In this document: piece after piece, positions 340 to 14,790 of the stretch | How positions within the stretch are numbered: the stretch's first letter is position 1 | Layout: every line of letters begins with the position of its first letter | NCBI GenBank assembly: GCA_014190215.1 | Contig: BJGB01000004.1 | Span: forward strand, 1-36,856 | From: Actinomycetes bacterium | GTDB taxonomy: Bacteria > Actinomycetota > Acidimicrobiia > Acidimicrobiales > Ilumatobacteraceae | Length of the DNA: 36,856 nucleotides | Direction: 5' to 3' | Notes under the pieces: generated by a model | What the model was told of the DNA's origin: nothing | Databases searched by the model: none | What the model saw: the letters and a program-made list of their open reading frames with translations, nothing else | Program-made: the position numbers and the translations under genes

Positions 340-1158
340 TTAAGCCCCCGCAGGAACAGGCATAGCGAGATTGGCGGCCAAAGTACGATCCCGGCGATGC
401 AACATAAAGCAAGTGATGAGGAAAAAGATTCCAGAGCCAAAGGTGACGAGCAACGCTGGTTGACGCTTAGTCCCAAGGTCGCGAATCATGACAATGTATT
501 GGTGAGATTTGGTCTCGTCGATGACTGGTCGTGCAGGAGCGCGGCCAGGTTCTACTCTTTGGGGCACTAAAGCGGCAATTTCTACAATCGCGTAATGCGG
601 TTTGTGCAAAAAGGCAAGGAAGTCAAGTTTGTCGCCGATCTTGGGATAGCGCTCACCACCACGGTCATACACCGCGACTGCTTCGTATTCGCCGCCGGCG
701 TACAACTCGGCTTCAACTTGAATGATTTCATCAGCAGCAGCGATTGACTGACCGCGACCCTTATCGTCCGTCGGAAGAACTTTCCAATTTTCTTCTTGCA
801 AAGCCTTCGCTCCAGCAGCAGCAGCCTCAACTGGTGATGCCCCCTCAGAAATCTTCACCGAGTTCACAAGCACCTCGGCCTGCGGCAATAGAGCTACATC
901 GCGTACAACCGTGAAGGGACGCGCCGGCTTCCACGACGGCTCATTACCTTTGAGACCAATGCCGTAGGTCATCCAGATAACACCCATCATGACCATCCAG
1001 CCGCTGAGTCCCGCAAGCGCAACTAAGAGTCCCAAGCGTGCGCCCATGTTGGTTGCAAGAAGAAGATAAACACTTCCGCATAGGGCGACGACGGCGATAA
1101 TGACCGTGAGAAGCCCGCGGATTTCGGGTTCCCAAGCGATGCTTAACATGGCGCTCAT
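340..1158 (-). CDS. Membrane protein of unknown function in the bc-complex operon
   Basis: A 272-residue protein I cannot assign to a named family. Two or three hydrophobic helices lie in residues 13-70, a soluble domain of roughly 150 residues follows, and one more helix (about 232-252) comes before a short basic tail. It has no CxxCH and no other obvious cofactor motif. Its ATG overlaps the stop of the diheme cytochrome c gene by four bases (ATGA at 1155-1158) and it ends three bases before nuoA. It is therefore tightly coupled to both, and an accessory or assembly role for the bc complex or its junction with complex I is a reasonable inference. It could also be a lineage-specific structural subunit. 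Confidence 0.8.
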   Translation of the reverse strand: MSAMLSIAWEPEIRGLLTVIIAVVALCGSVYLLLATNMGARLGLLVALAGLSGWMVMMGVIWMTYGIGLKGNEPSWKPARPFTVVRDVALLPQAEVLVNSVKISEGASPVEAAAAGAKALQEENWKVLPTDDKGRGQSIAAADEIIQVEAELYAGGEYEAVAVYDRGGERYPKIGDKLDFLAFLHKPHYAIVEIAALVPQRVEPGRAPARPVIDETKSHQYIVMIRDLGTKRQPALLVTFGSGIFFLITCFMLHRRDRTLAANLAMPVPAGA

Positions 1159-2219
1159 AGTTCGTTCCGTACGTAGTTCACGATCTGTTGGATCTGTTCA
1201 GCAGTCAATAAATCACCAAAGCCAGGCATCCGACCCGAACCTTGTCCTTGAATACCGTACTTCGCTCCGTACTTTGAACCAGCCTTGATGAAGTTGATCA
1301 TTTCTTGTTCAGTTGCGAAGTGAGTGTTCGTGGCTCCACCGGTGAGGTTCCAACCAAAGGCACCCGAACCAGTCTGTCCAGGCTCACCCCAACTCCATCC
1401 AGGCGTATGGCAGCGAGCACAACTAAAACCACCCGATCCCAATTCAAGATTGAAGAGTGCTTCTCCAATTGAGGAGTAGGTGCCATCAGCAACAGACTTT
1501 TCAGCGGCCGCTTGAATCTTGTCCTGTTCAACCACGGGCAAGTGTCCACCCTCGCAGTTCAACGGCTTGGCATCGGCCACGATGCAGTCTTCGCGCGGAA
1601 TCTGAATGCTCTTGAGGTACGCCAAAAGCGTGTCAATCTGTTGCGCGTTGAGTGGTCCACCGCCCTCAATGCCCCACGGGGACATCGGCGAGAAGGGTCG
1701 ACCGTATTGCAGGATAAACCGAACTTCATTTTCATCAAAGCGGTAGAAGACGGTGTTGATTGCTGGAGCTTTCCAAGTCACAGATTTCACTTCACCAGTT
1801 TTCGAATCAGTGATTGTGTATGGTGCCGCACCACCCGCACCGTTCATTCCACCATGGCAGCCAGCGCAGTTGAATCCACCCTCAGCAGTTGGAGCAAAAA
1901 GGTTTGAGCCCCACTCGATAAAACGATTCGCTTTACCGCTAGTTGCGTCAGCTTGGCGACTCGGTTCCAAAATCCAGTAGGCCGGCAGTCCAATCGTGAT
2001 CGTTGCCAACATTAAAACACCGAGCAACTGCATTTTCTGAAGGCGCTTACCCTCAAGAATTTCATCATCAAAATATTCTTTACGGTTAGCGGCGAGTTCA
2101 ATCTCCGAACCAATCTCAGCACGACCTGCTGATCGGTTGAAAAATGCATAGGTGACATAACCAATGACAAAAAATAACGCTATAAGTGAAGCGAAAGTAG
2201 AGGTGACGAGTGAAATCAT
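1155..2219 (-). CDS. Membrane-anchored diheme cytochrome c subunit of a quinol:cytochrome c oxidoreductase
   Basis: A 354-residue protein that should pass electrons from the Rieske protein toward a terminal oxidase outside the membrane. It has hydrophobic helices at about residues 5-27 and 64-84. Two c-type heme sites follow: CAGCH (118-122) and CARCH (267-271). Candidate axial Met residues are in an MSPWG motif (about 179) and an RMPGFG motif near the C-terminus. The two-domain diheme arrangement resembles QcrC of actinobacteria and the diheme PetA of heliobacteria. The start lies two bases after the Rieske stop (2222), and the 3' end overlaps the next gene by four bases. Secretion and heme attachment would need a cytochrome c maturation system not seen here. 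Confidence 0.9.
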   Translation of the reverse strand: MISLVTSTFASLIALFFVIGYVTYAFFNRSAGRAEIGSEIELAANRKEYFDDEILEGKRLQKMQLLGVLMLATITIGLPAYWILEPSRQADATSGKANRFIEWGSNLFAPTAEGGFNCAGCHGGMNGAGGAAPYTITDSKTGEVKSVTWKAPAINTVFYRFDENEVRFILQYGRPFSPMSPWGIEGGGPLNAQQIDTLLAYLKSIQIPREDCIVADAKPLNCEGGHLPVVEQDKIQAAAEKSVADGTYSSIGEALFNLELGSGGFSCARCHTPGWSWGEPGQTGSGAFGWNLTGGATNTHFATEQEMINFIKAGSKYGAKYGIQGQGSGRMPGFGDLLTAEQIQQIVNYVRNEL

Positions 2220-2221
2220 AA

Positions 2222-3076
2222 TCAGTGCTTTGTCTCTCCGGAAACGCAGTGCGGCCCTTCGGCCTCCTGCCCAGTCGTGTTGATACCAATTGCAGGACCG
2301 TTAAACCTAGTTCCAGTGTCAACAACGACGTTGCCATTGGTTACCGATACACCAAAGCGATCCATGCCACGAGGGGCGGGACCAGCTTTCTTTTCACCAA
2401 CACGGTTGTACTGAGACCCGTGACATGGACATTCAAACCACTGTGAACTCTTACATTCAGGAACTCGACAACCCAGGTGTGGACACTTTTGGTAGAGCGC
2501 AATAATGCCGCTTTCCATGCCAGTCGAAACCGTTTGCTTGCCATAAGACAGGCGTGCCTTAGGAAGAGAGTCGGCGGGGTACGAAGTCAACCAAGTTCGC
2601 GCCTCGGGCTTATACACAAAACCGCGCTCACTCCGAATTTGCGCGACCAAGTCATCAAGGCGACCGACGGTGACCTTGGAACCAAAACCCCCACCAGCAC
2701 GTGGCCACAAAAAGGCAATGAGCGAAGCGCCGAATGCCGCGGTACCCGTGAGCACCAAAAAGATTGATGCACGATTGAAGAACTGCCGACGAGAAACATC
2801 AATGGCCTCTTGATCTGGCGCTTGCCAAATCACAGGCGCTACTTCAGTAGCTTTTTCAAGAACGGCAGTACGAGTGGCGATTGCCTGTGACTCATACGCT
2901 GATCCAGCAGGAGCATCACCCGATTCAGCCTTGATCGACTTGTCACGCTTCACAGTTTCTCGCGCAAGCGCGCCTGCACCGCGTACATCAGAGCGTCGTG
3001 CCGAGGTAATCAGCACGACAGCAGCTAACACCACTAGGGCGGCGATAGCTATAACGATTGTTGCTAGGGGTGTCAT
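2222..3076 (-). CDS. Rieske [2Fe-2S] iron-sulfur subunit
   Basis: A 284-residue Rieske protein, the high-potential electron acceptor from quinol in bc-type complexes. Ligands are visible as CPHLGC (198-203) and CPCHGS (216-221): Cys198, His200, Cys216 and His219 bind the cluster, and Cys203/Cys218 form the usual disulfide. There is an N-terminal hydrophobic helix (about 5-24) and a second (about 104-125) preceded by a twin-arginine motif, SRRQFF (95-100), consistent with Tat-dependent insertion of the folded cluster domain as in actinobacterial QcrA. I chose the ATG at 3076 because GAGGAG lies about nine bases upstream; starting further 5' at 3148 would overlap the upstream gene and lacks such a site. 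Confidence 0.93.
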   Translation of the reverse strand: MTPLATIVIAIAALVVLAAVVLITSARRSDVRGAGALARETVKRDKSIKAESGDAPAGSAYESQAIATRTAVLEKATEVAPVIWQAPDQEAIDVSRRQFFNRASIFLVLTGTAAFGASLIAFLWPRAGGGFGSKVTVGRLDDLVAQIRSERGFVYKPEARTWLTSYPADSLPKARLSYGKQTVSTGMESGIIALYQKCPHLGCRVPECKSSQWFECPCHGSQYNRVGEKKAGPAPRGMDRFGVSVTNGNVVVDTGTRFNGPAIGINTTGQEAEGPHCVSGETKH

Positions 3077-3089
3077 AAAAGCGTGCTCC

Positions 3090-3842
3090 TCACAACTCGA
3101 AGAACAAGCCATCCCGCCAAGGGAAGACAAAGTTGAAACCAGGACCACGGAAGAACGATCCGATGATGACTAACACGGCCCAAAACATGAGGTGAATAGT
3201 CATAATCGAAGTCGCAAACTTGCGGTCCTCGGGTTTGTTGGATGAATTTTTGTCAATGAACGGCGCCAAAATTAAAGCAAACAATGCCACTCCAGGAATT
3301 GTCACACCAGCCACCATCGGGTGGAACATCGTCAACAATTCTTGAAGTCCTAAGAAGTACCAGGGTGCCTTTGACGGGTTGGGCGTCTGGTTGGGGTTTG
3401 CCAACTGCATCAAGGGAGCATTGACAAAAATTGCCACGAAGAACAAGAACGCAGTACAAGCAATCGCCGCCACGAACTCAACGGCCAGCAGGTGGGGCCA
3501 CGTATGCACTTTGTCCACTGGAGTGGCCTTGACATCTTGAATTGAGCCCGACTTAACGACTGTCAACAAGCGTTGAGTATGACCACCAGGGCCCGCTCCA
3601 ATAGGCAGACCTGCTGCAGCTGGGGCCGCACCCACAAGGGCGCCGACCTTTTCGGCGACAGCAACTTGCGCTCCGCCAGTTTTATCCTTAGCCGCTTTGC
3701 TGCGCTCAAGAAGATGAGCCGGAATGCGTGGATCTGAGGCTGGAGTATCGCCAGCAGCTGGCGCGGCCGCACCCGCTTGCGCAGCGGCCTGATCGCGAGC
3801 GGCTTGTGCTCGCTTCAAAAGGTGTTCTGGGATTTCAGTCAT
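3090..3842 (-). CDS. Cytochrome b C-terminal half (subunit IV / PetD type) with N-terminal IPEHLL repeats
   Basis: A 250-residue protein matching the C-terminal part of cytochrome b, encoded separately as in b6f complexes. Three hydrophobic helices (about 117-142, 176-196, 210-230) follow a long polar, Ala-rich N-terminal region. The Qo-site position usually written PEWY reads APWY (159-162), followed by FLGLQELL. The N-terminal region holds two copies of a short motif, IPEHLLKRAQAARD (4-17) and IPAHLLERSKAAKD (40-53); the same motif opens the cytochrome c at 5974. Subunit IV N-termini lie on the cytoplasmic side in known complexes. The gene starts 27 bases after the b6-type gene and precedes the Rieske gene. 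Confidence 0.9.
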   Translation of the reverse strand: MTEIPEHLLKRAQAARDQAAAQAGAAAPAAGDTPASDPRIPAHLLERSKAAKDKTGGAQVAVAEKVGALVGAAPAAAGLPIGAGPGGHTQRLLTVVKSGSIQDVKATPVDKVHTWPHLLAVEFVAAIACTAFLFFVAIFVNAPLMQLANPNQTPNPSKAPWYFLGLQELLTMFHPMVAGVTIPGVALFALILAPFIDKNSSNKPEDRKFATSIMTIHLMFWAVLVIIGSFFRGPGFNFVFPWRDGLFFEL

Positions 3843-3869
3843 GTTGAGTCATTTCCTTTCAGGCACTGG

Positions 3870-4652
3870 TCACAACGGACCGGAGATGCCACCGTCCTTG
3901 CGGACACGCCAGAAGTGGATAGCCATGAAAATCACGATGACGAAAGGCAACATGAGAACGTGTAACACATACCATCGCAGCAACGTTTCAGAACCGATCT
4001 CGACACCACCGAGCAATACGAAACGCACTTGAGAACCAAAGACCGGGGTATACCCCATCATGTTGGTACCCACAGCGACTGCCCACATTGACAACTGATC
4101 CCATGGAAGCAAATAACCCGTGAAGGAAAGAAGCAAAGTCAGCGTCAACAACACGACACCGATCACCCAGTTAAATTCACGTGGGGCTTTGTAGGCACCA
4201 TGATAAAAAACACGGGCCATGTGTAAGAACACCGAGAGCACCATTAAGTGTGCTCCCCATCTATGCATATTTCGCACAAGTAATCCGAAGGCCACCGAGG
4301 TCTGCAAACTGCTGATGTCATTCCACGCTGCCGTGGCTTCAGGGCGGTAGAAGAACATCAAGAAAATACCAGTCACCGTTAAGTGAATGAACAGGAAGAA
4401 ACTGAGTCCACCGAGACACAAGGTGTAGCTCACCTTGACGGCATGACGCTTGACCTTGACGGGATGCAAATGATAGAGCACCGAGTTCATGATGACGTAC
4501 GAGCGGTTACGCGGGCTATCGGTATAGCCCTTGCGGAAAATAGAACCGGGACGGAAGATTGAACTCCAGGCTTGACTGCCTTGAACATTCTCTACCGTCT
4601 GATTCAGACGCTCTTTTGCTGTTGGACGAGGATCGTCAATGACTTTTGCCAT
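3870..4652 (-). CDS. Cytochrome b N-terminal half (cytochrome b6 type) with heme ci cysteine
   Basis: A 260-residue four-helix heme protein of the bc/b6f family. The bis-His ligands are His130/His144 (13 residues between) and His231/His246 (14 between); the 13/14 pattern is that of cytochrome b6. The motif CLGG (79-82) aligns with YCLGG of b6 and YCFGG of Bacillus QcrB, so Cys79 sits where heme ci (cn) is covalently attached. A C-terminal RKDGGISGP also resembles b6 rather than the fused actinobacterial QcrB. The N-terminal 50 residues are polar. The gene lies between the ferredoxin (11 bases upstream) and the subunit IV gene. The protein is half the length of mycobacterial QcrB because the C-terminal half is a separate gene. 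Confidence 0.92.
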   Translation of the reverse strand: MAKVIDDPRPTAKERLNQTVENVQGSQAWSSIFRPGSIFRKGYTDSPRNRSYVIMNSVLYHLHPVKVKRHAVKVSYTLCLGGLSFFLFIHLTVTGIFLMFFYRPEATAAWNDISSLQTSVAFGLLVRNMHRWGAHLMVLSVFLHMARVFYHGAYKAPREFNWVIGVVLLTLTLLLSFTGYLLPWDQLSMWAVAVGTNMMGYTPVFGSQVRFVLLGGVEIGSETLLRWYVLHVLMLPFVIVIFMAIHFWRVRKDGGISGPL

Positions 4653-4663
4653 GGGTTGTTCTC

Positions 4664-5077
4664 CTAGAAACGCATTCCATATGCGTAGCCGTGATTAGCG
4701 GTACGTGTGTGAGTGTCGCCAGTTGCGAGAGCCGCACCAGCCTTGCCAAGAATGATGACGCCGGTCGGACACCGATCGACGCACAGTGCACAACGTGTAC
4801 AAACATCATCATCAATAATGAACAGAACATGATCGTTAGGGTCAAGCCCAGGGAGCTCGGTGTTGGTGGCTTCTGCCACAGCATCGGGAGTCACCATGTG
4901 GATGCACTTCCACGGACAGATATCAACGCAACCCTCGCACATGATGCATTCGGACTGGTCGATATGAATGAATTGCTTGGGCTTCACCGCCTTGGTGAGA
5001 TAGTCCGCGTCAACTTCAACCAGTTGGTACTGGTCGGAGTACGGCATCATTGGCGGATTGGCGTCAGTACGAGTCAT
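4664..5077 (-). CDS. 2[4Fe-4S] ferredoxin
   Basis: A 137-residue soluble protein with two complete [4Fe-4S] motifs: CIMCEGCVDICP (about 47-58) and CTRCALCVDRCP (about 92-103). Some 33 residues separate the motifs, longer than in clostridial ferredoxins. The N-terminal 40 residues and C-terminal 25 residues carry no motif. It would act as a low-potential one-electron carrier in the cytoplasm. It is the second gene of the bc-complex operon, four bases after the 5082-5558 gene and 11 bases before the b6-type cytochrome b. That position suggests a direct role with the complex or with complex I. It resembles NuoI-like ferredoxin domains, but it lies apart from the nuo genes. Confidence 0.9.
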   Translation of the reverse strand: MTRTDANPPMMPYSDQYQLVEVDADYLTKAVKPKQFIHIDQSECIMCEGCVDICPWKCIHMVTPDAVAEATNTELPGLDPNDHVLFIIDDDVCTRCALCVDRCPTGVIILGKAGAALATGDTHTRTANHGYAYGMRF

Positions 5078-5081
5078 GGGG

Positions 5082-5558
5082 TTATGCCTTCTTCACCAAA
5101 GGACGACCGTAACTTGATTGCTCAACCTCGGTGGACTTTGTCGTGCCACGCTTTTGCCACCACGTCCACATGTAGATCTGAACGCCCAAAAACAATCCAT
5201 AAATACCAGTGACGGCGATATCACCAATCTGCAGGTAGTTGATATCAAACGGGAAACTTCCACCGGCCGCTTGCGATTTAAAAATTGATCCAGGTCCGAG
5301 GAATGGCTTGTCAGAGCGCCAACCAAGTTCGTTTTGAACATGAACCAACCACTGATGAGGCACGACTCCGTAGGCCAGGAACATCACGAAGAATGCGTAC
5401 ACAGAGCCAATCATCGCCTCTCCCCAAGACATGGGAGTACCGATAGGACGGCGCTTGCCGTACACAAAAATAAGACCAGTCAGAATTGTTGTTAAAGCCA
5501 AGGAGAACAGGAAAGCCTGATTCATTCCCGGCCATTTCAGGATGTCAATCGCCAGCAT
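5082..5558 (-). CDS. Small three-helix membrane protein, first gene of the bc-complex operon
   Basis: A 158-residue protein not recognised by family. It has three likely membrane helices (about residues 14-34, 48-66 and 112-134) and a conserved-looking loop with HQWLVHVQNELGW between helices 2 and 3; the two His could be ligands, but that is a guess. The ATG at 5558 has a GGAAGGGAA purine stretch upstream. It is first in the operon and ends four bases before the ferredoxin gene. The context suggests a small subunit or an anchor for the ferredoxin at the membrane. No cofactor motif is visible. Confidence 0.8.
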   Translation of the reverse strand: MLAIDILKWPGMNQAFLFSLALTTILTGLIFVYGKRRPIGTPMSWGEAMIGSVYAFFVMFLAYGVVPHQWLVHVQNELGWRSDKPFLGPGSIFKSQAAGGSFPFDINYLQIGDIAVTGIYGLFLGVQIYMWTWWQKRGTTKSTEVEQSSYGRPLVKKA

Positions 5559-5874: not shown

Positions 5875-5973
5875 TCCGTCATAGCCTCACTCGCGCTCTA
5901 GTGTTGAACGAGACGTCGATTGCACGGTCGTTGTCAACAAATTGTCGTACCCCACGCCCGAAAGGACTGGTCC

Positions 5974-6792
5974 GTGACCGAAATTCCCGAGCACCTCTTA
6001 AAACGATCCCGCGACCGTAAGGCCGCTGGCGGCGATGCCTCCTCTACCGAGGTTTCGCCAGGCGCTGCAGTCCCAGCGACGACTGGCGCAACGACACCCA
6101 CCGCCCGAGTTTTGGTTGAAACTGAGGCTCAAAAGCCTGCAAAGAAGCCCGATCCGGCCTATGTCACGGCCGCCAAGACCCGTGGTCGCATCCCATCCTG
6201 GGCTATGGCCACGCTTGCTTTGATGCCCATTTTCTTGTTCATGTACGTCCGTGGCTTAGAGCCGCAAAAAGCCGAGGCACAGGGCCCGATCGCTATTGGA
6301 ATAGAGAACTACGGTGCTTGCGCTAGTTGCCACGGTGCCGACGGTGCAGGTGGTGCTGGTCGAGTCTTGAAAGACGGTGAGTCGTTGAAGACTTTCCCTC
6401 ATATCGAAGACATGTTGAATTGGGTCTATAACGGAACCGAGGCTTACGAGGCAGCAGGCGTCGCCTCCTACGGTGATCCGAATCGCGAAGGCGGATTCCA
6501 CTACCCGAGGTCCTATAACGGTGGGGCGATGCCCGCCCAAGGAGCAAAAGCCGGTGGGGCGCTCACCGAAGCCGAGATTTTGGGACTCATCTGCCATATT
6601 CGTTATGACATTTCAGGTGCTGATGAGGCTGGAGAGTGGGTCGAAGAGTACGAAAAGTGGTGCAGTCCGGAGAGCCAAATCTTTCTTGACCTTGAGGCCG
6701 GCACTATGACCTTTGATTCCGCCGAATTGGGTATCGGAACCGCTCCCCGCCTCGGCACCCCAGCCGACCAAGAAGTGATGGTCGCTGGCTGA
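5974..6792 (+). CDS. Membrane-anchored monoheme cytochrome c with N-terminal IPEHLLKRS motif
   Basis: A 272-residue protein. The N-terminal 70 residues are polar and Pro/Ala/Thr-rich and begin MTEIPEHLLKRSRDRK, nearly identical to the start of the cytochrome b half at 3842. One hydrophobic helix (about 74-92) follows, then an external c-type heme domain with CASCH (116-120) and candidate axial Met residues further on (such as in GAMPAQG). It probably shuttles electrons from the bc complex to an oxidase or forms part of a supercomplex. I chose the GTG at 5974 because GAAAGGA lies upstream and because the start then matches the cytochrome b half; the frame is open back to a TTG at 5920. It is divergent from the bc operon and followed after 104 bases by a flavoprotein gene. 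Confidence 0.9.
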   Translation: MTEIPEHLLKRSRDRKAAGGDASSTEVSPGAAVPATTGATTPTARVLVETEAQKPAKKPDPAYVTAAKTRGRIPSWAMATLALMPIFLFMYVRGLEPQKAEAQGPIAIGIENYGACASCHGADGAGGAGRVLKDGESLKTFPHIEDMLNWVYNGTEAYEAAGVASYGDPNREGGFHYPRSYNGGAMPAQGAKAGGALTEAEILGLICHIRYDISGADEAGEWVEEYEKWCSPESQIFLDLEAGTMTFDSAELGIGTAPRLGTPADQEVMVAG

Positions 6793-6896: not shown

Positions 6897-8144
6897 ATGA
6901 CTTCCCACCACGATGTCCTGATCATTGGCGCTGGACCCGCAGGTGCAGCTGCCGCGTACTGGTTAGCCAAAGAGGGTCTCGATGTTGTCATGGTCGACAA
7001 GAACCTTTTTCCGCGGGAAAAAACGTGTGGCGATGGTCTGACCCCGCGGGCTGTCAAGCAGATCCACGATATGGGTCTTGGCGATCAACTCTCTCAGTTC
7101 CATCGTTACGACGGATTGCGCACAACGGCTCACGGCAAGGCCATTGAACTGCACTGGCCCTCGCATCCGATTTATCCGCAACACGGCTATGTCGTGCGGC
7201 GCCGAGAACTGGACACAATGGTGGCGCGCAATGCGGTCGCCGCGGGGGCAACTTTGCTTGAAGGTCACGAAGCCCTCGCTCCAGTTCTGGAAAGAGGTTT
7301 TGTCCGCGGAGCGACAGTTCAAAGCAAAGACTCCGACATTCCTTTCGATATCACGGCGCGCTATGTGATTGTCGCCGACGGTGCCAACAGTCGCTTTGGG
7401 CGATCGCTCGGGACCTTTCGAACTAAGGAGTGGCCGTACGGGACTGCCATTCGCACCTATTGGGAAACGCCACGTCATGCTGAACCATGGATTGAGTCGG
7501 CGCTTGATGTCAAAGACCGCAACGGCAACCCATTGCCTGGCTATGGCTGGATCTTCCCCGTCGGTGACGGAACTGTCAACATCGGCGTTGGGCTGTTATC
7601 AACATTTCGCGATTTCAAAAGTGTCAACACGACTCATCTCCTTGATGCTTATGCCCACATGGTCGCTGACCGCTGGGAAATCGACCCTGACAATCCCACG
7701 ATGAAGGCAACCTCACGGCGAATCCCGATGGGTGGCTCAGTCGGACCAAAATCTGGACCTACGTACCTTGTCATTGGCGATGCGGCAGGAAGTGCGAACC
7801 CCTTCAACGGGGACGGTATTGATTACGCCTATGAAACTGCGCGTATGGCTGCAGAAGTGCTCACCGACGCTATTCGTCACAATGACCCAGCAGCATTACA
7901 GCGCTACCAAATGTTGATTGACGATGAGTACGGTCAGTACTTCAAGGTGGCGCGTTTATTTGGCCGCATCATTGGTCGACCGGTGATCATGCGCGAACTT
8001 TCGCGAGTCGGAATGCAAAGTCGCACTCTGATGGAATGGGTTGTGAGAATCACGGCCAACTTGTTGCGTCCCGATGAAATTGGACCAGCAGAAGTTGCCT
8101 ATAAAGCGGCAGCAGCAATTGTTCGACTCACACCTAATGCGTAA
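6897..8144 (+). CDS. Geranylgeranyl reductase family FAD-dependent oxidoreductase (MenJ-like)
   Basis: A 415-residue flavoprotein. An N-terminal Rossmann FAD site is visible as GAGPAG (about 11-16), followed by the family motif PREKTCGDGLTPRAV and the second FAD motif GDAAGSANPFNGDGIDYA (about residues 296-313). Family members reduce isoprenoid double bonds. In mycobacteria the related MenJ reduces one double bond of the menaquinone side chain. Next to menaquinol-type respiratory genes, a menaquinone reductase is the best guess, but geranylgeranyl lipid or carotenoid reduction cannot be excluded. It lies downstream of the cytochrome c gene on the same strand and converges on the 8157-8750 gene with 12 bases between. 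Confidence 0.85.
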   Translation: MTSHHDVLIIGAGPAGAAAAYWLAKEGLDVVMVDKNLFPREKTCGDGLTPRAVKQIHDMGLGDQLSQFHRYDGLRTTAHGKAIELHWPSHPIYPQHGYVVRRRELDTMVARNAVAAGATLLEGHEALAPVLERGFVRGATVQSKDSDIPFDITARYVIVADGANSRFGRSLGTFRTKEWPYGTAIRTYWETPRHAEPWIESALDVKDRNGNPLPGYGWIFPVGDGTVNIGVGLLSTFRDFKSVNTTHLLDAYAHMVADRWEIDPDNPTMKATSRRIPMGGSVGPKSGPTYLVIGDAAGSANPFNGDGIDYAYETARMAAEVLTDAIRHNDPAALQRYQMLIDDEYGQYFKVARLFGRIIGRPVIMRELSRVGMQSRTLMEWVVRITANLLRPDEIGPAEVAYKAAAAIVRLTPNA

Positions 8145-8767: not shown

Positions 8768-10135
8768 TCAGAGGGCGACGGCGAGGGCAGCTCGGTGAAA
8801 ACGCTCTGCTAGGTCATCCATCACGACATCGTCATGACCCAAGCCGACAAAAATTGCCTCGTAAGCACCCGGTGCCATTGCCACACCTTGAGCCAACAGT
8901 GCGTGAAAAAAGCGCGCGAATAACTTTTCATCAGTTCGCTTGGCTTCATCAAAATTGATTGGCAAGCGATCACTCCCTAGAGCATCTCCAAGGAAAATTC
9001 CCACGAGTGTGCCAACACGCGATGTGGTGACTGGTAAACCTGCTGCCGACGTGGCCTGCGTAATCAGTGACGCTAAACGAGTGGCACGCGTTTCAAGAAG
9101 ATGATAAACATCGGGAGTGAGTTGACTCAGAGCAGCCAATCCCGCCGCCGTCGCCATCGGATTACCAGCCAATGTTCCAGCATGGAAAACTTTTCCAAGA
9201 GGCGTGAGATTTTCCATAATGTCTTGACGACCGCCCACCGCTCCGATTGGCAGACCACCACCGATGACCTTGCCGAAACATGTCAGATCGGGCTTGACCG
9301 AGTAGCGACCTTGAGCGCCATCAGGACCGAGGCGAAAGCCAGTGATCACTTCATCGAATATCAATAACGCGCCAGCCTTGTCGCACGCGCGTCGTAAACC
9401 TTCAAGAAAACCTGGCACTGGAGCGACCACGCCCATGTTGGCAGCAACTGGTTCGACAATGACAGCGGCCACTGTTTCATCGATTTCGGGTATCACGTTG
9501 TAGGGAGCCACGATGGTGTTGGCGACGGCTTGCGGTGGCACACCCGCTGTGCCAGGAATACCGAGCGTGGCTACTCCACTGCCACCTGCAGCAAGAAGAG
9601 CATCGGTCGCACCGTGGAAGTTGCCACTAAAGATAATGATTTTTGCGCGACCCGTCAGCCCACGAGCTAGTCGTACCACTGTTGAGGTGGCTTCGGTACC
9701 CGAGTTCATAAAACGCACTCGCTCACACGATGGCACACGTTCGCTGATCGCCTCAGCCAATTTCATTTCACGCGGTGTCGGCGCACCGAAGGAGGTTCCA
9801 TCTACGGCGGCTTCACGCAAGGCCGCAGTAATCGCTGGATGCGCGTGGCCAAGAATGACCGCACCATAACTTTGAACGAGGTCAATGTAACGCGTTCCCT
9901 CCACGTCATATACGTGGGCACCGCTGCCTCGTGCCACGACATACGGTGAACCACCGACGGCTTTGAAGGCGCGGATTGATGAGTTCACGCCACCAGGAAT
10001 GACACGTGCTGAACGCTCAAATAAAGTCACGTTTGAGGGCACACCCGCACCCTTACAAACAATGGGGTCACAACCGGCAGCCACACAAGCTACGGGATCA
10101 CACAATGGAATGGACGACTGCTGAGTTGTACTCAT
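8768..10135 (-). CDS. hemL: Glutamate-1-semialdehyde 2,1-aminomutase
   Basis: HemL converts glutamate-1-semialdehyde to 5-aminolevulinate, the second step of the C5 pathway. This 455-residue protein has VIPGGVNSSIRAFKAVGG near its start, the PLP region with DEVITGFR (about 261-268) and the Schiff-base lysine in CFGKVIGGG (Lys289). The ATG at 10135, five bases after the hemB stop, adds about 31 residues ahead of the normal family start. They form two tandem decapeptides with Cys at 12, 17, 22 and 27 (CDPVACVAAG, CDPIVCKGAG). A GTG at residue 32 would give the standard length, but it has no clear ribosome binding site, so the longer form is preferred with moderate confidence. Confidence 0.93.
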   Translation of the reverse strand: MSTTQQSSIPLCDPVACVAAGCDPIVCKGAGVPSNVTLFERSARVIPGGVNSSIRAFKAVGGSPYVVARGSGAHVYDVEGTRYIDLVQSYGAVILGHAHPAITAALREAAVDGTSFGAPTPREMKLAEAISERVPSCERVRFMNSGTEATSTVVRLARGLTGRAKIIIFSGNFHGATDALLAAGGSGVATLGIPGTAGVPPQAVANTIVAPYNVIPEIDETVAAVIVEPVAANMGVVAPVPGFLEGLRRACDKAGALLIFDEVITGFRLGPDGAQGRYSVKPDLTCFGKVIGGGLPIGAVGGRQDIMENLTPLGKVFHAGTLAGNPMATAAGLAALSQLTPDVYHLLETRATRLASLITQATSAAGLPVTTSRVGTLVGIFLGDALGSDRLPINFDEAKRTDEKLFARFFHALLAQGVAMAPGAYEAIFVGLGHDDVVMDDLAERFHRAALAVAL

Positions 10136-10140
10136 GTGCT

Positions 10141-11130
10141 TTAACCGTTCACTAATTCGCCGTACCAACGCGCCAAGTACGTGAGAATAATATCTGCACC
10201 GGCGCGCTTGATCGCCGTTAAATGTTCTGTAGCCACGATGTCGTGATCAATCCAACCGTTGGCTGCCGCTGCTTTGATCATTGAATATTCACCACTCACG
10301 TGATAGGCCGCCACGGGCACATTGACGAGTTGTCGCACCGCAGCGATGACATCAAGATAAGCCAAAGCAGGTTTGACCATCACCATGTCAGCACCTTGTT
10401 CAATATCGGCTTCAACTTCAGTCAGCGCTTCACGAGCATTGCGCCAATCCTGTTGATAGCCCTTGCGATCGCCACCACCGATAATTTGCACATCGACAGC
10501 TTCCCGAAACGGTCCATACAATCCAGATGCATATTTTGCCGAGTAAGCAAGAATTGATGTTTCGCTATGGCCGTTGGCATCGAGTGCCGCACGAATCACA
10601 CCGACCTGACCGTCCATCATTCCACTTGGCGCAACAACATGTGCACCGGCATTGGCTTGGGCAATTGCAGCCTTGGCATACACCTCAAGAGTCGCGTCAT
10701 TGTCTACTGACCCGTGTCCGTCGAGAATGCCACAGTGACCGTGACTGGTGTATTCATCAACGCATAAGTCAGACATCAGGACAACTTGATCACCAAGATC
10801 AGAACGCAGATCAGATAGCGCTAGTTGGACAATGCCTTGGGGATCAAAGGCTCCCGAGCCAATCTCGTCTTTAGTACTCGGAATGCCAAATAAAATCACT
10901 GACTTGATGCCGAGGTCAGCGAGTTCGCGGACCTCCTGTCGAAGACTCGCTCGGGTGTGTTGCACAACTCCAGGTAAAGAAAGAATCGGTATCGGCGAAT
11001 CAATGCCTTCACGGACAAACAGCGGCGCTACTAAATCGTTGACATTCAGTCGAGTTTCAGCCACGAGATCACGAAGAGCCTGAGTGCGGCGTAAGCGACG
11101 AGGGCGCGACACGGGAAAACGTGCTGACAT
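10141..11130 (-). CDS. hemB: Delta-aminolevulinic acid dehydratase (porphobilinogen synthase)
   Basis: HemB condenses two 5-aminolevulinates into porphobilinogen. In this 329-residue protein the two Schiff-base lysines are Lys199 (AYSAKYAS) and Lys253 (MVMVKPALAYLD). The metal-binding loop reads DLCVDEYTSHGHCG (121-134): the first and third ligand positions keep Cys (123, 133) but the middle one is Asp125, a mixed form between the all-Cys zinc site and the Asp-rich magnesium type. The ATG at 11130 is preferred over the GTG two codons earlier. It lies 26 bases after hemD and five bases before hemL. Confidence 0.95.
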   Translation of the reverse strand: MSARFPVSRPRRLRRTQALRDLVAETRLNVNDLVAPLFVREGIDSPIPILSLPGVVQHTRASLRQEVRELADLGIKSVILFGIPSTKDEIGSGAFDPQGIVQLALSDLRSDLGDQVVLMSDLCVDEYTSHGHCGILDGHGSVDNDATLEVYAKAAIAQANAGAHVVAPSGMMDGQVGVIRAALDANGHSETSILAYSAKYASGLYGPFREAVDVQIIGGGDRKGYQQDWRNAREALTEVEADIEQGADMVMVKPALAYLDVIAAVRQLVNVPVAAYHVSGEYSMIKAAAANGWIDHDIVATEHLTAIKRAGADIILTYLARWYGELVNG

Positions 11131-11156
11131 ACTCACAGCCTACGGGCGATATTTAG

Positions 11157-11900
11157 TCAACGACTCCCCAGGGCCGCCGAAGTAGCGCCAACCAATCCTG
11201 CCAGAGATTGTTCACTGGCAACTGTGACCGGAGCGATGCCCAGTTCACTCAGTGCTGTGGCAGTCGTCGGGCCCATCGCCACGACCACTGCGGGAGTCAG
11301 TCGTCCGAAAAGCGTGACCCAAGCACGTGCCGCTGAAGCCGACGCAAAAGTGATGGCATCACATCCGTGAATCTCCGCCTCTCGATCTGTGGCAGTGGTC
11401 AGTGGGACAGTTTGGTAGGTCACAATTCGGTCCACAGTCCAACCCTGAGCGCGCGCCGCAATTTCAAAATCATTGCCCGCCGACTCAGCCACTGCCAAAA
11501 GAACCCGTCCAGACCCGGATGGGAATATCTCACCCAACGAACGTCCGGTTTGCACGACTGGAATGAGATCAGCCCCACCAACAGCTTGCGCCGTTGCTGT
11601 TCCGACAGCGGCAATTTTGAAGGATCGATGTTCAAGAGATGCTGCAGTCATCGCTTCACGAAAACGGTGTGCACCCTCAGGAGAAGTGACCACAACCCAG
11701 TCGTATTGGTCAATCGCTTGACATGCCTCGCGAAGTGCTTGACCGTTGTCCGCAGGGTCAACCGTGTCTGTCACTGCAATTTCGATCACCTCCGCACCTG
11801 CCTCACGAAACATCGTGCTCAGAGCGCCTGCACGTTGTGCTGAGCGCGTGACAATGATTCGGCGTCCAGATAACGCAGCGGTCGGCAGGTCATTCGCCAT
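11157..11900 (-). CDS. hemD: Uroporphyrinogen-III synthase
   Basis: HemD cyclises hydroxymethylbilane with inversion of ring D. With the ATG at 11900 the protein has 247 residues, the usual length. It opens with SGRRIIVTRSAQRAG and holds the scattered conserved residues of this weakly conserved family, including DWVVVTSPEGAHRF and ITFASASAARAW. The frame is open far upstream into hemC, but starts there would overlap hemC by hundreds of bases; an alternative ATG at 11927 is possible. It follows the hemC stop by 10 bases. Position between hemC and hemB supports the call. Confidence 0.9.
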   Translation of the reverse strand: MANDLPTAALSGRRIIVTRSAQRAGALSTMFREAGAEVIEIAVTDTVDPADNGQALREACQAIDQYDWVVVTSPEGAHRFREAMTAASLEHRSFKIAAVGTATAQAVGGADLIPVVQTGRSLGEIFPSGSGRVLLAVAESAGNDFEIAARAQGWTVDRIVTYQTVPLTTATDREAEIHGCDAITFASASAARAWVTLFGRLTPAVVVAMGPTTATALSELGIAPVTVASEQSLAGLVGATSAALGSR

Positions 11901-11910
11901 TATTTTGATG

Positions 11911-12792
11911 TCAGCCAGCGACTGCATCTCGTGCAGTGCGAGCGGCTGATCGTGATGCATGAAGTAAATCATCATGAGATGAGATGTGGCCCGTGGCGAT
12001 TGAGGCAAAGTGATGTTGTACTGCATCATCAGAAGCCAGATATACCAACATCGTTGAACCATCGTCATAAGCGCCGACTGGTAATGAACAACCCGAACCC
12101 AACTCAGCGAGAAATGCCCGCTCATGTTCAACAGCACGACGCGATAACGCGTGATCAATGGCGTGCAAAATATCCTGCGTCTGTTGATCATCTTCACGAC
12201 ATTCAATGGCCACGCAACCCTGACCGACTGCGGGCACCATGACTTGCACGTCGATATATTCACTGACGCGATCGCTCCAGCCCAAAATTTCTAATGCTGC
12301 TGCGGCCATCACGATTGACCCATCAACTGGAATCTTTTCTAGACGCGTCGGGATGTTGCCACGAAGTTCAACGAAATGTAGATCTGGACGAATTGCCATG
12401 AGTTGTGAGCGTCGACGAACAGAGCCCGTCGCAACTGTCGCACCTTGATCCAAATCTGCCAAAGAACGACCGACCAAGACATCACGCGGATCGCGTCGCT
12501 CGCCAAAGGCAGCGATGACTAAACCCTCAGCGGGAGTGGAAGGAAGATCCTTGGCACTATGTACGGCAATATCTGCTCGACCTGCCAAAACAGCGGCCTG
12601 CACTTCTTTAACAAAGACTCCTTGCCCACCAATGGTGTGTAAGGGCACATCTTGTCGTTGATCACCGGTGGTATCAACGAATATAAGTTCAACGTTCAGC
12701 CCACGATGACTAGCGCGCAAGAGATCAGCGACGGCAGTGGCTTGAGTACGGGCTTGAGCAGAACCTCTAGTGGCAATGCGAACACTCGTCAT
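11911..12792 (-). CDS. hemC: Porphobilinogen deaminase (hydroxymethylbilane synthase)
   Basis: HemC joins four porphobilinogens into hydroxymethylbilane. The 293-residue protein begins SVRIATRGSAQARTQ, has DIAVHSAKDLPS (75-86, with the catalytic Asp region nearby at 101-104) and the dipyrromethane-attachment Cys235 in LGSGCSLPVGAY. The length fits the family. It starts 16 bases after hemA and ends 10 bases before hemD. Confidence 0.96.
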   Translation of the reverse strand: MTSVRIATRGSAQARTQATAVADLLRASHRGLNVELIFVDTTGDQRQDVPLHTIGGQGVFVKEVQAAVLAGRADIAVHSAKDLPSTPAEGLVIAAFGERRDPRDVLVGRSLADLDQGATVATGSVRRRSQLMAIRPDLHFVELRGNIPTRLEKIPVDGSIVMAAAALEILGWSDRVSEYIDVQVMVPAVGQGCVAIECREDDQQTQDILHAIDHALSRRAVEHERAFLAELGSGCSLPVGAYDDGSTMLVYLASDDAVQHHFASIATGHISSHDDLLHASRSAARTARDAVAG

Positions 12793-12808
12793 GAGCGCTG
12801 ACTCGCCG

Positions 12809-14071
12809 TCAACTCAGGTCAAAGAGATCGCGTACGGCCGCCGAGTTGCGTTCTCCTCGCGGAGTACCTGCATCGTCTTTGAGGCGCACTGACATGTCAT
12901 GTAGCAACTTAGCAACGATGCCCTTGGTCAAGGCATCTACTGCTTGTTGTTGTTCATCGGATAAAGAAGACAACTTCTTCTGCAAACGATCAATTTCAGC
13001 TATGCGCACCACTTCAGCACGAGCGTGTAACAGTGCCACAAGTGGTGCAGCCTGGCGCGCTGTCAACTCAAGAGTGAAGCGCTCTAATTCTTGGGCAACA
13101 ATATTTCGTACGGCTTGAGCTTCAGCAGCACGCAATGCCTGACCACGCGCCGCCCAGTCACGCAAGTTATCTAAATCAAGTAAGGTCACGCCGTCAATTG
13201 TCGCGACATCGGACTCAACATCGCGTGGCACAGCAATGTCCACGATGAACAATGGTCGCGAGGCACGCTGTTGCATTGCCTTTGACACCATCTCAACGTC
13301 AATAACTGTTGTGCCAGCACCAGTGCATGTCACAACGACATCGGCCTGCGTCAGAGTCTCGGCTAACCGATAGAACTCAGTCACTGAACCAGAAACTCGA
13401 TCAGCTAAGGCTTGCGCTTTGGCGATGGTTCGATTAGTAACAAGAACTTGGCTGATACCAGCATCAGCCATTGCAATCGTGACACCTTCACCCATGTCGC
13501 CAGCCCCGACGACAAGCACAGTTAACCCTTCAACCGTTCCGAGATTTTCGCGGGCCATATCGACGGCAGCTTGACTGACACTCGCGGTATGGCGACCGAT
13601 AGATGTTTCAGTGCGCGCCCGCTTTCCGGTTTCAATTGCGTGTCTAAATAAAAGATTCAGTGTGGATAATGATCCACCTTCATGTTGCGAACGCTCCCAG
13701 GCCGAACGCACCTGTCCAAGAATCTCGCTTTCGCCCACTACTGCCGAATCCAGGCCAGCAGCCACTTCAAATAAATGACTAATGGCAGCATCGTCGTGCT
13801 GGCTATAGACATGGGGTGTCAATTCTTCCGGTGAAAAGCCGCCAAGGTCGCAAAAGAAATCGCGAAGATCGCCATAGGCACCGTGAAACTTCTCGGCAAC
13901 TGCATACACCTCGGTGCGATTACATGTTGAAAGCACCACAACTTCACGAATGTTGGGTCGCGCCATCAAACCGTGAACCGTCTTGGCAATTGCGTCGTCA
14001 GCAATTGTGACCCGCTCCAGAAGAGAAAGAGGCCCAGTTCGGTGATTCACCCCAAATACGACGATCGACAC
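12809..14071 (-). CDS. hemA: Glutamyl-tRNA reductase
   Basis: HemA reduces glutamyl-tRNA to glutamate-1-semialdehyde with NADPH and commits glutamate to tetrapyrroles. In this 420-residue protein the active-site Cys50 lies in VVLSTCNRTEVYA, and the NADPH-binding loop is GAGDMGEG (about 190-197). The GTG at 14071 is chosen because the protein then begins SIVVFGVNHRTGPLSLLERV, as in the family, with a GATAGGG purine tract upstream and 35 bases from the rex stop. The frame runs on into rex, which is not expected to be translated. Confidence 0.95.
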   Translation of the reverse strand: MSIVVFGVNHRTGPLSLLERVTIADDAIAKTVHGLMARPNIREVVVLSTCNRTEVYAVAEKFHGAYGDLRDFFCDLGGFSPEELTPHVYSQHDDAAISHLFEVAAGLDSAVVGESEILGQVRSAWERSQHEGGSLSTLNLLFRHAIETGKRARTETSIGRHTASVSQAAVDMARENLGTVEGLTVLVVGAGDMGEGVTIAMADAGISQVLVTNRTIAKAQALADRVSGSVTEFYRLAETLTQADVVVTCTGAGTTVIDVEMVSKAMQQRASRPLFIVDIAVPRDVESDVATIDGVTLLDLDNLRDWAARGQALRAAEAQAVRNIVAQELERFTLELTARQAAPLVALLHARAEVVRIAEIDRLQKKLSSLSDEQQQAVDALTKGIVAKLLHDMSVRLKDDAGTPRGERNSAAVRDLFDLS

Positions 14072-14106
14072 GACAGTAACCCTATCTCTCAGACCTTTTA
14101 TCGGAC

Positions 14107-14790
14107 CTATGCACTGACACTCTTCGGTAAAAGTTGTGGCCATGGAACAACTTTTTTCTTGTGTTGCTCATGAAAACTCAGGATCTGCAATTCACAGGCC
14201 AAATCAACTTGGCGAACGGTAATTCCCGCCGGAACGTTCACGGGAATCGGGGCGAAGTTCAAAATACTGGTCACCCCCGCAGAGATCAGTCGATCGGCGA
14301 CAATCTGAGCGGCCTCGCCCGGAACTGCCACCACGCCTATCGCCACCTGCCGTGAGGCGATGAGTGCAGGCAAGTCATCAATATGGCCCACCCGAAGGCC
14401 ACCAATAACCGAGCCAACTTTGGCTTCGTTGATGTCCACGAGACCCACGATTGGGTAACTTCGCCGGCCAAACCCGCCCGAGCCAATGAGGGCCTGACCT
14501 AAATTGCCAGCACCAACGATGACAACTGGCCATTCGTGGTCAACGCCAAGTTCTCGTTGAATCTGAAAAATCAAGAAGGAAACCTCGTACCCCACCCCAC
14601 GAGTCCCATAACTGCCGAGGTAACTGAGATCTTTACGGACCTTGGCAGCGTTAATGCCGCCCATTTCAGCGATTTTCTCCGAGGACACGCCGACTACCCC
14701 AGATTCTGTCAACTCAAGCAGAATCCGCAGATACATCGGAAGCCGAGAAATCGTGGCTTCTGCGATTTTGCGACGAGAGCGATCTGCCAT
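14107..14790 (-). CDS. rex: Redox-sensing transcriptional repressor Rex
   Basis: Rex binds operator DNA when NADH is low and releases it as the NADH/NAD+ ratio rises. This 227-residue protein has an N-terminal winged helix (about 1-80, with KIAEMGGINAAKVRKDLSYLGSYGTRGVGY) and a C-terminal Rossmann domain with GAGNLGQAL (about 105-113) for NAD(H). It heads a run of heme genes (hemA starts 36 bases later), the same arrangement as the Streptomyces rex-hemACD operon, where rex is autoregulated. No strong Rex operator was found just upstream; an imperfect one may lie at 5805-5822. Confidence 0.96.
   Translation of the reverse strand: MADRSRRKIAEATISRLPMYLRILLELTESGVVGVSSEKIAEMGGINAAKVRKDLSYLGSYGTRGVGYEVSFLIFQIQRELGVDHEWPVVIVGAGNLGQALIGSGGFGRRSYPIVGLVDINEAKVGSVIGGLRVGHIDDLPALIASRQVAIGVVAVPGEAAQIVADRLISAGVTSILNFAPIPVNVPAGITVRQVDLACELQILSFHEQHKKKVVPWPQLLPKSVSA

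Follow-up and report, generated by a model that had tools for sequence, protein, structure and literature searches.

Which kind of complex III is encoded where cytochrome b is split between two genes and a ferredoxin gene lies directly upstream of the first? The question is raised by the window analyzed here, a 36,856-nucleotide stretch of contig BJGB01000004.1 (assembly GCA_014190215.1) from an actinomycete of the family Ilumatobacteraceae. On its minus strand, in the order of transcription, lie genes for a three-helix membrane protein, a ferredoxin, a cytochrome b6, a subunit IV, a Rieske protein, a diheme cytochrome c and a membrane protein of unknown family. An earlier, sequence-only reading of this locus had described cytochrome b as two genes, and so it is: a PetB/QcrB-type half of 260 residues (b6; 3870-4652, minus strand; PF00033/PF13631) is followed by a PetD-like subunit IV of 250 residues (3090-3842, minus strand; PF00032). 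The gene content, gene order, conserved residues and phylogeny set out below are direct observations, and they are best read, with slightly better than even confidence, as those of a complex III that is wired to ferredoxin on its cytoplasmic side.

The b6 protein aligns with solved b6 structures, and the residue that the sequence-only reading had placed at the heme ci site holds up. Cys79 (codon 4416-4418, minus strand), in the string 'TLCLGG', aligns without gaps with the cysteine that five PDB b6 chains have in 'YCLGG' or 'YCIGG'. It is kept at every one of the 104 loci (110 minus six duplicates) on which we counted conservation in the actinobacterial b6 clade, hereafter clade I. The same complete conservation holds for His61, His63, His70, Arg249 and the four b-heme histidines, which pair as H130/H144, with 13 residues between, and H231/H246, with 14 between. 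The 13/14 spacing reported earlier is therefore present, but its use as a mark of b6 does not stand: it cannot separate b6 from QcrB, because fused actinobacterial QcrB rows align over the b-heme histidine stretches without gaps. The fold of an AlphaFold2 (AF2) model of b6 matches b6 chains, best 1q90_B (TMt 0.83). As part of the wired-complex reading, and with the same slight preference, these residues point to a b6f architecture with a heme ci predicted to be bound covalently to Cys79, at the quinone site of the cytoplasmic side.

A second conserved residue sets this b6 apart. His61 (codon 4470-4472, minus strand) lies in an N-terminal 'HLHP' segment and is a histidine not only throughout clade I but also in 45 of the 46 other rows of a wider HLHP clade, where Cys79 is kept in only 24 of 46. 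Because of these unequal counts outside clade I, the ci cysteine appears to have been dispensable in the evolution of the HLHP clade and His61 not, apart from one locus, L208. Loss of heme ci seems to have occurred on more than one occasion within the clade. We observed Cys79 replaced by R, Y, W or G, with His61 kept, in L102-L106, L121, L203-L205, L213 and L219, and likewise in L197-L199, L201, L215 and L220.

What His61 might do is suggested by the anammox complexes, in which AlphaFold3 models place an interface b heme on Kuste4571 His43 or Kustd1481 His62, with Arg511 of Kuste4570 and Arg550 of Kustd1483 nearby (PMC12954380). One genome in our set, G487, carries two clusters arranged as described for Kuste4569-4574 and Kustd1480-1485. 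From this layout and the residue numbers, by which alone the anammox clusters were identified, we infer that G487 is Kuenenia, that its locus L184 is Kuste4569-4574 and that L183 is Kustd1480-1485. In L184 the first histidine of LHLHP is residue 43 of a 256-residue b6, and a 585-residue open reading frame (ORF) has Arg at residue 511 if its first Met is the start. Window His61 aligns with that same histidine, and so would occupy the ligand position of the predicted dimer-interface heme, whose binding is itself a published prediction (PMC12954380). Provided that both clusters are rightly identified and that translation begins at the first Met, Arg511 and Arg550 both lie within the ferredoxin domain at the C-terminus. 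The region of the flavoprotein described as adjoining the extra heme would then resemble the free ferredoxin of the window, and this is the main argument for an electron wire.

The gene for this ferredoxin (137 residues, 2[4Fe-4S]; 4664-5077, minus strand; Fer4 families), in which inspection by eye revealed no signal peptide, is a nearly constant companion of b6. It lies upstream of b6 in 78 of 80 genome-contig loci, the other two being cut at a contig end, and in 98 of the 100 clade I loci with at least 600 bases of upstream sequence. The gap from stop to stop has a median of 4 bases and a maximum of 114, and each of the eight cluster cysteines is retained in 98 or 99 of 99 rows. Six second-copy actinobacterial clusters (L102-L106 and L121), whose b6 has His61 without Cys79, hold in the ferredoxin's place an ORF of 609-794 residues, with a C-terminal ferredoxin domain that is found by a hidden Markov model (HMM) of the window ferredoxin; the three of these six that were scanned match GltD-like models, that is, models resembling the NADPH-dependent small subunit of glutamate synthase. 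The same pattern, an iron-sulfur flavoprotein beside a b6 with His61 and without Cys79, recurs in the planctomycete loci L203-L205, L213 and L219. The anammox-like loci L183-L190 and L196 carry a 567-602-residue protein of the GltD-like/ferredoxin-domain kind (four were looked at closely).

Conserved residues mark the other subunits too. Subunit IV, assigned by its family match, by conservation and by its alignment to chain 1q90_D of plastid b6f, has Glu122 (codon 3477-3479, minus strand) in 101 of 102 clade I rows, with one gap. This residue aligns with Met39 of 1q90_D, one column before Phe40, which we take to cap heme ci in plants. Its position would fit a Glu-ligated heme ci, and Glu is given as a heme ci ligand in PMC12954380. 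The Qo motif reads KAPWY where 1q90_D has LPEWY, so that the glutamate of PEWY is lacking; KAPWY too is kept in 101 of 102 rows, with one gap. The Rieske [2Fe-2S] protein (2222-3076, minus strand; PF00355) has a listed GTG start at 3148 that overlaps subunit IV, and an in-frame ATG at 3076. In the PDB it matches b6f Rieske proteins best, 9rk4_A coming third, and its CPCHGSxY box holds Ser221 (97 of 99 clade I rows) and Tyr223 (95 of 99), with two gaps each; Ser and Tyr are tied to a high potential in PMC12954380. The diheme cytochrome c of the sequence-only reading (1155-2219, minus strand; PF00034 and PF13442) has hydrophobic N-terminal segments and indeed two CxxCH motifs, at residue 118 (90 of 93 rows) and residue 267 (72 of 93, with 21 gaps). 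It gave no cytochrome f family match at E 0.001, no PDB match up to E 0.01 by sequence search, and no QcrC-named NCBIfam match, although the presence of a QcrC model in NCBIfam was not checked.

On the model that we favor, the window would encode a quinol (probably menaquinol):cytochrome c oxidoreductase made of b6, subunit IV, the Rieske protein and a membrane-anchored diheme cytochrome c, with heme ci on Cys79. It would be the sole complex of the Rieske/cytochrome b type detected in the draft genome, which is 80.8% complete and in which the one PF13631 match is the window b6, the same search found no fused cytochrome b, and COX1 is matched twice. Its b6 would belong to the His61/HLHP clade shared with Planctomycetota, anammox-type complexes included. 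The dedicated cytoplasmic 2[4Fe-4S] ferredoxin would dock on the N side and exchange single electrons with heme bN/ci, probably via an extra b heme between the two His61 residues of the dimer. In place of this ferredoxin, related clusters would use the ferredoxin domain at the C-terminus of an NAD(P) flavoprotein. All the cofactors, the ferredoxin binding and the interface heme are predicted parts of this model.

The direction of transfer is a separate matter. We give an even chance to flow from ferredoxin into the complex, with reduction of menaquinone at the ci site and a bypass of complex I. Such a reaction is downhill and would resemble a path debated for many years in plant b6f. Reduction of ferredoxin driven by quinol, the direction proposed for anammox, seems to us distinctly less probable, and transfer in neither direction less probable again. 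The anammox authors argue for output from the complex to ferredoxin (PMC12954380), and we keep such output in view because the window Rieske carries the high-potential Ser and Tyr.

Several observations weigh against a wired complex. The AF2 model, which confirms the b6 fold, has a predicted local distance difference test score (pLDDT) of only 52-59 over residues 31-80 and for that reason places neither His61 nor Cys79 reliably. The argument from the ferredoxin-domain arginines is modest, because Kuste4570-like proteins score weakly with the ferredoxin HMM (E 1.3e-4 in L184) and 4Fe-4S domains occur widely. That two genes are neighbors does not prove that their products bind. Two clade I loci, L083 (genome G382) and L099 (G118), keep b6 and His61 with no ferredoxin gene there; a search for the ferredoxin elsewhere gave only a weak match in G382 (E 5.8e-6) and none in G118. 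L208 has an iron-sulfur flavoprotein neighbor, yet lacks the N-terminal HLHP segment. Conversely, 15 planctomycete clusters (L191-L193, L197-L202, L212, L215, L217 and L220-L222) keep His61 with no same-strand ferredoxin-like or two-cluster ORF found within 6 kb, although L193 and L221 have just 1.4 and 2.2 kb downstream. Because of these 15, His61 does not track ferredoxin, and we dropped the proposition that it occurs only beside a ferredoxin or iron-sulfur flavoprotein. The source of reduced ferredoxin is a further difficulty. The obvious one is 2-oxoacid:ferredoxin oxidoreductase, of which POR_N is the mark. POR_N is present in 88 of 100 genomes of the class, but it was not found in the window's own genome or in the same-genus G252 (97% complete), and this enzyme was dropped as a general supplier.

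The strongest competitor, which we consider possible but appreciably less probable than a wired complex, is a conventional menaquinol:cytochrome c reductase of the b6f type with heme ci, whose co-transcribed ferredoxin is a soluble carrier for other enzymes and whose His61 is structural. The clients could be assimilatory reductases or a MenJ-like reductase, and a candidate for the latter lies close by: a geranylgeranyl-reductase family flavin adenine dinucleotide protein (6897-8144, plus strand) that scores above cut-off with TIGR02032 and reaches 336 bits with the MenJ model, whose cut-off of 700 it thus misses. A MenJ-like gene is a near neighbor in many loci, and the 15 clusters, the two ferredoxin-free genomes and the gap between adjacency and binding all suit this explanation. 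The idea that ferredoxin serves the MenJ-like reductase is weakened, however, because ferredoxin remains beside b6 in L091-L098, L100 and L101, loci in which neither the MenJ-like gene nor that for a monoheme cytochrome c is detected (L095 and L097 hold just 2.2 and 3.3 kb upstream). An unattached carrier also fits poorly with the replacement of ferredoxin by an iron-sulfur flavoprotein in related clusters and with the far better conservation of His61 than of Cys79 outside clade I. A different proposal is electron bifurcation, in which one quinol electron passes via the Rieske protein to cytochrome c and oxygen while the other reaches ferredoxin through bL, bN and the interface heme and supplies biosynthesis with low-potential electrons. 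It is one direction of the wired complex, so that the two overlap in probability, and taken by itself we think it rather unlikely. The b6 features are the same as in the anammox complexes for which bifurcation has been proposed, and Ser221 and Tyr223 are of the high-potential kind (both from PMC12954380); the missing PEWY glutamate also speaks for it. On the other side, we identified no strict need for such a ferredoxin in an aerobic heterotroph.

If b6 were a simple split of fused actinobacterial QcrB, or half of a hybrid, its phylogeny should say so. We built a tree of 88 rows, omitting 35 of 123, for the most part duplicates or near-duplicates and rows on long branches (Aureibacter and L208 included); it holds no Firmicutes sequence, and Firmicutes kinship was tested by profile score only. 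Clade I is monophyletic (support 98/97). With paralogous actinobacterial and planctomycete proteins it forms an HLHP set of 58 rows on one side of a branch supported at 98/89; in an initial tree of 123 rows this clade comprised 88 of them, with a Shimodaira-Hasegawa-like approximate likelihood ratio of 94. Fused QcrB does occur in the same order, in families f2, f4 and f5, and together with Haloferax the fused proteins branch, on weak support (82/44), as sister to the entire HLHP set, which might suit a simple split. Yet one clade of clade I and fused QcrB is rejected by the approximately unbiased (AU) test (p 0.0075), none of ten fused QcrB rows carries the ci cysteine or the HLHP segment, and the 260-residue b6 reaches just 120 bits with NF050120, against a cut-off of 500. 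We rejected the simple split on the AU test and regard it as very improbable. Clade I and plant/cyanobacterial b6 as one clade is likewise rejected (p 0.0003); for both AU tests the groups were chosen with the first tree already in view. The hybrid of a Firmicutes/heliobacterial b6 with actinobacterial QcrCAB, which the sequence-only reading had proposed from a split b6 with a ci cysteine beside a diheme cytochrome c, is not supported either, and we consider it improbable. Among the sequences compared, the nearest b6 proteins outside Actinomycetota are planctomycete/anammox-type. Scores of a subunit IV HMM made from close loci agree with this kinship, at about 1e-30 to 1e-44 on planctomycete HLHP clusters and about 1e-5 to 1e-18 on distant actinobacterial split types (database sizes differ). 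The c subunit lacks a QcrC-named match in NCBIfam, and the b6 scores higher with ExtP (NF040969; 303.6 bits, cut-off 290) than with PRK03735 (211.8 bits, below its cut-off of 325), a model that we take to cover Bacillus QcrB. The Rieske protein was set aside as a kinship witness, since its score ranges overlap between distant actinobacterial split types (about 1e-6 to 3e-15) and planctomycete HLHP clusters (about 1e-11 to 1e-21).

How common is this b6 in the phylum? That a split b6 is unusual in an actinobacterial genome, as first thought, proved too strong. A scan of genome contigs found at least 576 relatives; the best 80 were kept, with 84-100% identity in the best segment, and the record titles of those listed are mostly Actinomycetota, Ilumatobacteraceae or Acidimicrobiia-type metagenome-assembled genomes. 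Some b6 match is present in 243 of 396 Actinomycetota genomes scanned, and a full-length match (63-100% identity, in open frames of 229-423 residues) in 116 of them. Because of these counts, the split b6 is a standing trait of large parts of Actinomycetota; split b6 outside phototrophs had already been noted (PMC3578206). Of eight genomes examined from the fused-QcrB families f2, f4 and f5, seven have an open frame of 508-803 residues, each plus a weak second match, and the eighth has its match in two pieces on two contigs. The actinobacterial cluster is also carried by contigs L031 (filed under Phycisphaeraceae), L048, L050 and L053 (Bifidobacterium breve), whose filing likely reflects binning or naming errors; of 149 genomes scanned in the phylum to which G396, the source of L031, belongs, 90 gave a match. 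One further locus, L107, has a 572-residue open frame whose b6 part carries LHLHP and Gly at position 79; a nearby 655-residue ORF is matched by the monoheme cytochrome c HMM, and no ferredoxin was found.

Anammox already provides an example of a b6f-type Rieske/cytochrome b complex that has an iron-sulfur partner on its N side. Kuste4569-4574 and Kustd1480-1485 resemble the window in their b6-like cytochrome b with a ci cysteine, the HLHP segment and its predicted interface-heme histidine, subunit IV, the Rieske protein and an N-side 4Fe-4S domain, and differ in having an NAD(P) flavoprotein as N-side partner and hexa- or octaheme c subunits (PMC12954380). The window has instead a free-standing ferredoxin, a diheme cytochrome c and the extra three-helix protein, and its cluster holds neither an NAD(P) flavoprotein subunit nor a c subunit with six to eight hemes. 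Plastid and cyanobacterial b6f share with it a four-helix b6 with the ci cysteine, a separate subunit IV and a PetC-like Rieske protein, whereas their PEWY is intact (1q90_D) and the window c subunit gives no cytochrome f match at E 0.001. We know of no HLHP segment in these complexes, the b6f segments compared here beginning after that region, nor of a ferredoxin gene in their b6 operon. Actinobacterial QcrCAB (the bcc complex) shares a diheme c and, presumably, the menaquinol:cytochrome c role, and has in place of the split b6 a fused QcrB without the ci cysteine, in a separate clade. ExtP and ExtQ (NF040970), named after a selenite/tellurite operon, are the best NCBIfam models for b6 and subunit IV, the latter at 52.4 bits, below its cut-off of 150; this comparison is by model only. 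In the titles and abstract beginnings that we searched, no ferredoxin gene was reported in an actinobacterial bc cluster; subscription literature was poorly covered, and this is weak evidence that a free ferredoxin in the N-side place, with a diheme c, in Actinomycetota is apparently new.

The remaining genes of the row offer few family clues. The three-helix protein encoded by its first gene (5082-5558, minus strand; AF2 pLDDT 87; helices at residues 14-36, 45-77 and 108-135) has no Pfam match up to E 1 and no PDB fold match at E<=0.001. It is retained in L083 and L099 despite the loss of ferredoxin, and is for this reason perhaps a subunit of the complex itself. The last gene (340-1158, minus strand), marked by its conserved gene order, encodes a membrane protein for which a Pfam search up to E 1 gave no match. 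On the plus strand lies a divergent monoheme cytochrome c (5920-6792; CxxCH at residue 134; PF00034 at E 0.002, below cut-off). It shares with subunit IV, near the N-terminus, the motif IPEHLLKR(A/S), found twice in subunit IV (3703-3725 and 3811-3833, minus strand) and once in the monoheme protein (5983-6005, plus strand); its DNA pattern occurs three times in the draft genome, always at this locus. Across the 110 clade I loci (duplicates included) the motif is present in 92 of the 108 ORFs for subunit IV and 76 of the 82 for the monoheme c, and absent from 658 other labelled and 11,487 unlabelled ORFs. It may be a shared docking tag. Just past the complex, 8768-14790 holds hemL, hemB, an ORF with a HemD domain, glutamyl-tRNA reductase and a Rex-like ORF (PF06971 plus a CoA-binding domain).

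Taken to its full extent, our reading would have a large part of Actinomycetota respire with ferredoxin as a working subunit of complex III, a third b heme between the His61 pair linking its 4Fe-4S clusters to ci/bN, so that one complex would be both quinol:cytochrome c reductase and ferredoxin:menaquinone oxidoreductase. We advance this tentatively, as a proposition somewhat short of even. If true, it would parallel, in respiration, the route from ferredoxin to plastoquinone whose existence around heme ci of b6f has long been suspected. Complex III is taught as contacting only quinone and cytochrome c, and a conserved N-side ferredoxin would give this central respiratory enzyme an added electron port. 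The actinobacterial complex would also offer a non-photosynthetic bacterial system in which to study the purpose of heme ci and the feeding of a b6f-type complex by ferredoxin, and its natural losses, of Cys79 where His61 is kept and of ferredoxin in two genomes, would let the roles of the two sites be separated.

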